From Fibrobacter sp. UWR4 (GTDB taxonomy: Bacteria; Fibrobacterota; Fibrobacteria; Fibrobacterales; Fibrobacteraceae), in contig NZ_QGDU01000005.1 in NCBI RefSeq assembly GCF_003149045.1, positions 1 to 64,000 of the forward strand: a stretch of 64,000 bases of DNA, read 5' to 3'. Positions 30,873-33,196 of this stretch are shown here, one piece after another. Numbering within the stretch: the first letter of the stretch is position 1; each line of letters begins with the position of its first letter. The notes under the pieces are model-generated. The model did not search any database. It saw only the letters and a program-made list of their open reading frames with translations, and had not been told where the DNA came from. The translations under genes were made by a program, and so were the position numbers.

Positions 30873-31048
30873 CGTTTTATTACACTCACGCCCCACAATT
30901 CACCACCACGTTTCAATTTTCTCTTTTTTCGCCCCAGAAAACGCCTCAAAAAAGTCATCCTCCACTGCCAGTCCGACACTAGACTAGTGAACATAAAGAC
31001 ACTCATTTGCTAGATTTTCACCTGAAACTTCCCCACTTGGCCCCACAA

Positions 31049-32203
31049 ATGCTTCTCAGATCACCCGTTTTTTACCACCAGTTCCAATGCATCGCCGACA
31101 AATGTACCGACACTTGCTGCGTGGGCTGGGAAATCGACATTGACGAAAAATCCCTGGAAAAGTACCGACAGCTCCCCGAAAATGGGCCCGACGAGAGCCG
31201 CCGCACCTTCGGAAAGCGCCTTCTGGAAAACATCGAAGAGGGGCATTTCAAACTTTTGCCAGGAGACCGCTGTCCTTTCCTCAAGGAAAACGGTCTTTGC
31301 GACATGATTTGCCACCTAGGATGCAAGGGCACGGATTTAGATGAAAATGGTGAAAGCATCCTCTGCAACATCTGCAGGGAACACCCCCGTTTTGTGGAAG
31401 TCTATGGCGATATCATGGAAAAGGGTCTGGGTCTCTGCTGCGAAGAAGCGGCAAGACTGTTGCTGACATCCGAAACGTCATGCCGAACTAGTTTCGGCAT
31501 CAGCAGTCTTTCCTTCGCAGAAAGCGAAATTGACGAAGAACCGGACGAAATGCCGGAAGACGCAAAAGAAGCCCGCGACGCCATTTTCGCAGAACGCTCC
31601 CACATGTTCGAACTGATGGCAGATTCCAGCAAATCGCTGAACCAGCGGCTCATCGACGTTCTGGACTACGCCGAAAGCGTCAACAGCTACGAAGAAGACT
31701 CCGAAAAGCAAGACGACGAAGAACCGGAACTTTCTCCGGACGCCATTCAACAGACCTGGATTGAAATTCTTGGCGAAGGAGAAAGCTTCGGCCCCGCCTG
31801 GGATAACGCCTACGAACGCATGATCCGCAAGGGATGGCCCCTTCCCACGTCATGCCGAACTCGCTCCGGCATCAGTTTATTTACAGATGAAGACGGCGCA
31901 CGCATTGTCACCTATCTACTTTACCGCTACTACGCCAAGAGCCTTTTTGATGGCGACGGTATGACCAAAGTCCAGTTCGCCATTTACTTCTGGATCATGC
32001 TTCAAAAGTTCGGCGATGTTCTTGCAGCAGGCTCCCCTGCAGACGCAACGGATCTTACCCGCAAAATAAACGCAATCAAACTTCTGAGCAAGCAGACGGA
32101 ATACTCCGAGGAAATCATGGAAATCCTGGCGGACAATTTCTTCCAGAACGAAGCATTCAGCGTCAGCCAATTCCGCAACATCATCACCGCATTGCAATCC
32201 TGA
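31049..32203 (+). CDS. FliB-like lysine N-methylase family protein with two inserted palindromes
   Basis: A 384-residue Cys-rich protein of the FliB family: CIADKCTDTCCVGWEIDID at residues about 13-31, then DRCPFLKENGLCDMI, CHLGCKGTDLDENGESILCNICREHPRF and LGLCCEEAARLLL. FliB itself methylates flagellin lysines; no flagellar gene is in this window, so another target is likely. Two 29-base palindromic repeats lie in frame and are translated as TSCRTSFGIS and TSCRTRSGIS. The ATG at 31049 is preferred to a TTG at 31007. The DUF1848 gene begins 16 bases after the stop. Confidence 0.8.
   Translation: MLLRSPVFYHQFQCIADKCTDTCCVGWEIDIDEKSLEKYRQLPENGPDESRRTFGKRLLENIEEGHFKLLPGDRCPFLKENGLCDMICHLGCKGTDLDENGESILCNICREHPRFVEVYGDIMEKGLGLCCEEAARLLLTSETSCRTSFGISSLSFAESEIDEEPDEMPEDAKEARDAIFAERSHMFELMADSSKSLNQRLIDVLDYAESVNSYEEDSEKQDDEEPELSPDAIQQTWIEILGEGESFGPAWDNAYERMIRKGWPLPTSCRTRSGISLFTDEDGARIVTYLLYRYYAKSLFDGDGMTKVQFAIYFWIMLQKFGDVLAAGSPADATDLTRKINAIKLLSKQTEYSEEIMEILADNFFQNEAFSVSQFRNIITALQS
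31475..31503 (+). repeat. Palindromic repeat inside the FliB-like gene, copy 1
   Basis: ACGTCATGCCGAACTAGTTT then CGGCATCAG, 29 bases. The arms TGCCGAA/TTCGGCA form a hairpin. It differs from copy 2 at three central positions. Confidence 0.85.
31847..31875 (+). repeat. Palindromic repeat inside the FliB-like gene, copy 2
   Basis: ACGTCATGCCGAACTCGCTC then CGGCATCAG, 29 bases, in the same reading frame as copy 1 and 372 bases from it. Confidence 0.85.
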
Positions 32204-32218
32204 GCGAAGAATCCAACA

Positions 32219-33196
32219 ATGATCATCTCCGCCAGCATCCGCACAGACCTCCCCGCATTCTATTCCAAATGGTTCCTGAACAGAATCCGCGAAGGCTACG
32301 TGCTGGTACGAAACCCCTACAACCAGGATTACATTACCCGCTACCAGCTGGACCCAAGCGTTGTGGACTGTCTATTTTTCTGCACCAAGAATCCAACCCC
32401 GCTCCTCCCCCATCTGGAGGAAATCGCAGATTACCGCTGGATGTGGCACGTAACCCTCACGCCCTATGGAAAGGACATTGAGCCCAACGTTCCCCACAAG
32501 CGATTCATTGTGGAGCAGTTCAAGAAGCTTTCGGACATGGTCAATGCCCATAACGGCGGTGAGGACGCCGTTCAGTGGCGTTACGACCCCATCTGCATTA
32601 CAGGCAGATACACCGTAGAACAGCATATTAAATCCTTCGAAGTGATGGCAACCCTTCTGGAAGGTTACACCCGCACCTGCATTATCAGCTTCGTAGACAT
32701 TTTCAATTGCGTCACCAAGAACTTCCCGGAGCTCCGTCCTGTCTGTTGGGAAGATCAAGTGACTATAACGAAAGCGTTTGTAGAAATCGGAGGTCAGCAT
32801 GGCATCGCTATCAAGACCTGTGTAGAGAACGGCGCTCTCGCGGAATTTGGAGCCGACTGCAGCGGCTGTACTACGCCAGCTGTTTTTGAAACCGCTCTCG
32901 GCCTCCCGACACGGGGCCTTACCTTCACTCCCCCCAAAAAGAAATTTGCCCGCGACGAATGCAGCGCCTGCGTGGTAGGCGGCGATATTGGTAACTACAG
33001 CAACTGCCCACACTTATGCAAATACTGCTACGCCAACTACGGAAAAGATCAAGTGCTGCAAAAACACAAGACGCACGATCCAGAATCGCCATTGATTATT
33101 GGCAACTTGCGTCCCGGAGAAATCGTACACCCTGCAAAGCAAGAAAGTTGGATAAAGAAAAAGCCCAGCGTTCAGCCGGATCTATTTGAAATCTAA
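32219..33196 (+). CDS. DUF1848 family protein (Fe-S/radical-SAM-like)
   Basis: A 325-residue protein with the DUF1848 pattern: MIISASIRTDLPAFY start, FFCTKNPTPLL, WHVTLTPYG, WRYDPICI and a C-terminal Cys cluster CSACVVGGDIGNYSNCPHLCKYCYAN. The end resembles an iron-sulfur site; the family is linked with radical-SAM-like folds but its function is unknown. It follows the FliB-like gene by 16 bases and both are Cys-rich, which suggests one pathway. Confidence 0.82.
   Translation: MIISASIRTDLPAFYSKWFLNRIREGYVLVRNPYNQDYITRYQLDPSVVDCLFFCTKNPTPLLPHLEEIADYRWMWHVTLTPYGKDIEPNVPHKRFIVEQFKKLSDMVNAHNGGEDAVQWRYDPICITGRYTVEQHIKSFEVMATLLEGYTRTCIISFVDIFNCVTKNFPELRPVCWEDQVTITKAFVEIGGQHGIAIKTCVENGALAEFGADCSGCTTPAVFETALGLPTRGLTFTPPKKKFARDECSACVVGGDIGNYSNCPHLCKYCYANYGKDQVLQKHKTHDPESPLIIGNLRPGEIVHPAKQESWIKKKPSVQPDLFEI

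Follow-up and report, generated by a model that had tools for sequence, protein, structure and literature searches.

Host Gene and Its Two Repeats

The window analyzed, a 64,000-nucleotide stretch of the genome of Fibrobacter sp. UWR4, contains a FliB-like gene carrying two copies of a palindromic repeat. The relevant features are the following:

31049..32203, + strand: FliB-like (flagellin lysine-N-methylase family) gene, 384 aa, housing both repeats (open reading frame, NF038110, orthologue-concordant start)
31469..31513, + strand: loop 1, residues 141–155, between helix 132–140 and strand 156–160 (AlphaFold model, orthologue alignments)
31475..31503, + strand: REP copy 1, core GTCATGCCGAACTAGTTTCGGCATC at 31477–31501, encoding TSCRTSFGIS (residues 143–152), sense strand
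31694..31735, + strand: middle loop, residues 216–229, between helices 197–215 and 230–240 (AlphaFold model, orthologue alignments)
31832..31885, + strand: loop 2, residues 262–279, coil between helices 249–261 and 280–301 (AlphaFold model, orthologue alignments)
31847..31875, + strand: REP copy 2, core GTCATGCCGAACTCGCTCCGGCATC at 31849–31873, encoding TSCRTRSGIS (residues 267–276), in the same reading frame as copy 1

The open reading frame begins with an ATG at 31049, a start codon consistent with the aligned orthologues, and the expected length of 384 residues is confirmed. The FliB-like label assigned in the original prediction is likewise correct: in a profile search the protein scored 185.5 bits against NF038110 (Lys_methyl_FliB), with a cut-off of 85. 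By this score it is a member of the FliB family, with predicted methylase activity. The gene directly downstream (window positions 32219–33196) encodes a DUF1848 protein and was detected in only 3 of the 37 genomes searched, 23 of which belong to the genus; unlike this neighbor, FliB itself is widespread in the genus.

The two 29-mers, 372 nt apart, are identical at 26 of 29 positions and differ in three central bases. They had been described as translated in frame into TSCRTSFGIS and TSCRTRSGIS, and this holds at both sites, the reading frame passing through each copy without interruption. The 25-nt core has two matches within the window, both in the FliB-like gene, and none in dinucleotide-shuffled windows. 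Both copies are preceded by C, giving a CGTC tag, and their tails are partly eroded relative to the unit of about 30 nt described below. No Rfam family matched in the interval 31000–32300.

In the AlphaFold2 model built for the FliB-like protein (mean pLDDT 89.6, pTM 0.88, 45 sequences), the three FliB sites at which repeats occur among the orthologues fall between predicted secondary-structure elements. Block pLDDT at these sites is 68–81, versus at least 90 for most of the chain. A fold search of solved structures returned no significant PDB match for the model.

Repeat Family

The UWR4 genome comprises 3.60 Mb in 93 contigs, and the copies were examined as loci. The pattern GTCATNCYGNNNTNNNNNCRGNATC has 34 matches genome-wide, while the reversed-pattern control has none; with two further copies containing mismatches, the family totals about 36 members in this genome. 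The genome-wide search thus revealed a dispersed family, with copies both inside and outside genes. Within the genus, the family pattern was present in 36 of 37 genomes tested; all 24 genomes from outside the genus lacked it.

Alignment of the flanks defined the unit as GTC-ATGCCGAA-CTYGT-TTCGGCAT-C-RGCT, with a sharp start at GTC and a conserved tail, C-R-G-C-T, that differs from CCA. The 29-mers of the original prediction are genuine copies but do not coincide with the conserved unit, a sequence of about 30 nt starting from GTC, GTCATGCCGAACTTGTTTCGGCATCRGCT. GTC is present in all 36 copies and is preceded by C in 16 and by T in 9; GTCAT is found in 35 of the 36. Eight copies carry an extra upstream half unit (L006, L009, L010, L016, L018, L053, L055, and L058), located exactly 15 nt upstream in seven of them, a spacing that preserves the frame; five of the eight are in genes.

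The stem consists of eight pairs, of which the first two (A-T and T-A) are invariant, and encloses a 5-nt loop, CTTGT or CTCGT. Over 23 distinct copies, 98.4% of the stem cells are paired, compared with 15–45% in slid controls. Four pairs vary on both sides, giving 25 double-changed cells in the same set versus 7.0 in shuffles. The hairpin proposed from the two FliB copies is thus real, and its stem covaries across the family.

Another REP, GTCATTGCGAG-[inner stem]-CGAAGCAATC (hereafter TTGCGAG-type), is present in genome G024 and in most genomes of the genus, for example at loci L229, L240, L244, and L257, around position 1501. Its outer arms are constant, and its inner stem is nearly arbitrary yet self-complementary within each copy (80% paired versus 38% in shuffles). 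Copy number reaches 78 in G024, and 47 copies occur in G056, a distant genome of the phylum. In G024, eight repeats form a tandem array with an exact spacing of 45 nt (G024:C4:3274–3614; L232–L239).

Copies Within Genes

A codon-usage gene caller, run on loci of 3 kb, places 15 of the 36 copies within genes and 17 in intergenic DNA, with the other 4 straddling a gene end. Among the genes concerned are those for FliB, PriA, RsgA, and RibD, together with genes for a TonB-receptor-like protein, a Methyltransf_4 protein, a radical-SAM protein, a histidine phosphatase, and a GH53 glycosidase whose serine-rich stretch holds two copies. In-gene copies are rarer than expected from random landing: before four further copies were classified, 14 of 34 were in genes, against a coding density of 0.873 as measured on the window (p ~3e-10).

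Eleven of the in-gene copies are in sense and four in antisense orientation. The sense strand of the CGTC-2 consensus, the subgroup to which the repeat is assigned below, is open in all three frames, while the antisense strand is open in one of three (AGCT tail) or two of three (GGCT tail). A tolerance of about 3:1 in favor of the sense orientation is predicted from the three open sense frames, and the observed ratio of about 3:1 is the expectation from stop-codon filtering. Of 30 TTGCGAG-type copies examined in G024, 13 are in genes, with 11 in sense and 2 in antisense orientation.

Loops of FliB, RsgA, and RibD in Other Species

Orthologues of FliB, RibD, and RsgA were compared since UWR4 carries a repeat in each of these genes; no species is represented twice in the genome sample. 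In UWR4, FliB has CGTC-2 copies at loops 1 and 2 and no REP at the middle loop. The same protein in G036 has GTCATCCCCGACCTGATCGGGGATC at loop 1 (peptide CHPRPDRGSS) and a TTGCGAG-type repeat at loop 2 (CHCEHSEAFA). TTGCGAG-type repeats occupy all three sites (loop 1, the middle loop, and loop 2) in G024, with the peptides CHCEERSDEAI, CHCEQSDAI, and CHCERSEAI. At loop 1, G011 carries GTCATCCTGAGCTGCGCGAAGGATC, read as RRHPELREGSS, and the Horse_feces13 genome (L151) carries GTCATCCCGGACTTGTTCCGGGATC. The latter FliB also contains two decayed elements, a TTGCGAG-type repeat at the middle loop and a CGTC-2 copy at loop 2; the peptide SSRTCSGIS occurs in this protein. Different repeat families thus occur in the same loops, and the loop 1 elements of UWR4 (TSCRT) and G036 (CHPRP) are read in different frames.

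No recognizable repeat was found in the alignments in FliB of L149, L023, L153, and L154, of more distant Fibrobacter, or in Clostridial orthologues. L149 is 70% identical to the UWR4 protein over its whole length and has short loops, as does L023. The original prediction had called for a comparison with relatives lacking the segments, and L149, L023, and the Clostridial orthologues are without these residues. Had the same residues been present in orthologues of other genera, the segments would have been ordinary protein; they were looked for there and did not occur.

Relative to L149, the UWR4 loops have gained a net 15 nt (site 1) and 24 nt (site 2), both less than the unit. This rules out a simple, clean 29-bp insertion in FliB, and one has to suppose that neighboring bases were lost on insertion or that trimming followed later. 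The loop 2 copy of Horse_feces13 is of the same family and in the same frame as that of UWR4, indicating that part of the pattern was inherited rather than acquired independently. The tree within the close FliB group is poorly supported.

RsgA provides the cleanest empty site of the set. The UWR4 loop is 21 residues longer than that of G036 and contains an antisense REP; the G036 protein, 98% identical over residues 146–440, lacks the 21-residue insert and has RFDNCEVVT. In G079 this loop holds a different antisense REP, and in G024 and G025 it holds GAGACGA heptad arrays; it is empty in G036, G081, and the outgroups. Across many species, it is occupied by different repeat DNA (L101–L140). The GAGACGA heptads are also scattered elsewhere in the genomes whose RsgA loop holds them; of the 41 genomes searched, 21 contain dispersed heptads.

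In RibD, several loops contain different types of repeats across species (L071–L148), e.g., CHCEERSDEAI in G024. In G011, RibD contains CHPREGGDL and RHPRDLSA repeats over a long stretch.

RsmH, encoded next to FliB, was used as the control. No repeats were detected in its 21 genus orthologues (20.7 kb), while the same detector found repeats in 4 of 30 FliB orthologues. The DUF1848 gene had been considered for this role and was dropped because of its rarity (3 of 37 genomes).

Origin of the In-Frame Repeats

Very probably, a small REP spreads with the help of a trans-acting activity, and selection retains within genes only in-frame insertions in unstructured loops. A short CGTC-tagged REP-type palindrome, with a GTC tag, an 8-bp stem beginning with A-T/T-A, a 5-nt loop, and a short unpaired tail, would spread across the chromosomes of Fibrobacter, reaching low to moderate copy numbers, with fresh copies being made in trans. 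Landing would be random, and insertions that break the frame or hit the fold would be purged. Copies in genes would persist only when they add whole codons, are free of stops, and lie in a disordered or surface loop, where they may be neutral for the protein. Given such permissive loops and such a survival filter, the same loops would be colonized again and again, by different REP families in different species and independently of one another.

A search covering the Y1 class found a single Y1_Tnp gene in the genome, with no repeat within about 2 kb of it; a RAYT link was rejected on these grounds. A search for target-site duplications gave best flank matches equal to the control. The suggestion that the repeat is mobile or spreading and tolerates coding regions agrees with its dispersal and with the presence of 15 of 36 copies in genes; since neither a transposase nor a target duplication was found, nor any polymorphism within a species, we infer the transposition-like movement itself.

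The alternative of one ancient insertion per loop, of which the present repeats are diverged descendants, is the model preferred for the rickettsial elements RPE-4, -6, and -7 (PMC3767692). It could account for the fact that every element begins with GTCAT and ends with ATC, for the family and frame common to Horse_feces13 and UWR4 at loop 2, and for the intermediate length of some repeat-free loops, such as that of L023. Short-loop orthologues occur, however, within the same group (L149 and L154) and in all outgroups, a single loop is read in different frames (TSCRT in UWR4, CHPRP in G036), and the RsgA loop holds one of two different antisense REPs, heptad arrays, or nothing, depending on the genome; we regard a single ancient insertion as unlikely. 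In Fibrobacter, orthologues with empty sites, elements read in changed frames, and a mixture of repeat types all favor independent insertion into permissive loops for at least some cases.

It is quite improbable that the segments were retained for a function, either as an mRNA hairpin within the gene or as a peptide loop adjusting the protein. The covariation of the stem between copies implies that pairing matters or is regenerated at the family level, and RPE-1-decorated proteins of R. conorii are expressed (PMC3733652). Nevertheless, one loop is filled by different repeats, in different frames and on different strands, and close relatives do without them; in the loop 2 copy of Horse_feces13 the stem has been lost (GGCATC to GACACC) and the gene remains open. 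Ordinary variable loops resembling each other by chance, although the segments do sit in the least conserved loops, are refuted by the number of genomic matches: the 25-nt core has 34 versus none for the control, many copies are intergenic, and shuffled windows contain none.

The constant outer arms and arbitrary, self-complementary inner stem of the TTGCGAG-type repeat suggest a further, speculative and rather doubtful addition to spread followed by selection, namely an active process in Fibrobacter that multiplies REPs and also remakes their stems into perfect palindromes, for example by hairpin-templated copying of single-stranded DNA. If this were so, the process would supply protein loops with in-frame segments ready for use, and REPs would keep contributing to loop evolution in conserved enzymes.

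In Fibrobacter, a genus of gut bacteria in which dozens of species have been sampled, the same loops include empty sites and repeats of other frames, strands, and families, and this varied occupancy makes the question of old versus new insertion directly testable. These loops are a natural record of where proteins tolerate insertion. For annotation, peptides such as CHCERSEAI, SCRTCFGIS, and RHAELVSAS in such proteins should be recognized as repeat-derived.

Comparison With Known Palindromic Elements

Rickettsia and Wolbachia are the main sources of the palindromic repeats so far described in protein-coding sequence. Among REPs, those of the GTAG type carry a GTAG tag and flank a gene for a RAYT transposase. 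The Fibrobacter repeats resemble the GTAG REP/RAYT system in being short dispersed palindromes, some of them intragenic, and differ from this REPtron arrangement in their GTC tag and in that the one Y1 transposase found is not flanked by the repeat.

The likeness to Rickettsia palindromic elements noted in the original prediction holds for the in-frame genic location and the GTCAT motif, and fails for the classical length of 100–150 bp. Like RPE-1, RPE-2, and RPE-3, the repeat is palindromic DNA inserted in frame within genes; those elements, however, have this classical length and are poor in ATGAC (PMC3767692), whereas the Fibrobacter unit is about 30 nt. The similarity to RPE-4, RPE-6, and RPE-7 extends to the ATGAC motif (GTCAT on the opposite strand), to in-frame loop inserts, which in Rickettsia lie in solvent-exposed loops (PMC3767692), and to the presence of different groups at one orthologue locus. 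The rickettsial inserts listed in that work are 68–192 bp long, and all rickettsial orthologues carry one at the site (PMC3767692); in Fibrobacter, the units measure about 30 bp and the loops of close relatives are empty. For the ATGAC-bearing RPE groups found at the same orthologue locus, insertion hotspots, with many new insertions, and one old diverged insertion could not be distinguished; both were left open, with a common origin favored (PMC3767692).

RPE-4 and RPE-6, together with Neisseria dRS3, belong to the superfamily of CGTC-tagged REPs, for which intragenic copies are on record and no transposase is known (Di Nocera, De Gregorio and Rocco, 2013; PMC3733652). These elements have an unpaired terminal CGTC, often TGTC or CCTC, a stem of 8–9 bp whose first pairs are A-T and T-A, a loop of 4–5 nt, and a tail that is usually CCA; Fibrobacterota are not among the phyla listed for them (PMC3733652). 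Beyond that work, a literature search found no precedent for such repeats in Fibrobacter or for in-frame REPs elsewhere. The Fibrobacter repeat differs from CGTC-tagged REPs in its C-R-G-C-T tail, instead of the usual CCA, and in that its copies are not as a rule head-to-head dimers and frequently have the 15-nt half-unit extension. With its (C)GTC tag, 8-bp stem beginning with A-T/T-A, 5-nt loop, in-frame intragenic copies, and lack of an associated Y1 transposase, it nevertheless matches the CGTC-2 architecture. The element type itself is known, and the value of its Fibrobacter member lies in loops that appear to have been repeatedly colonized and for which empty orthologues are available for comparison.
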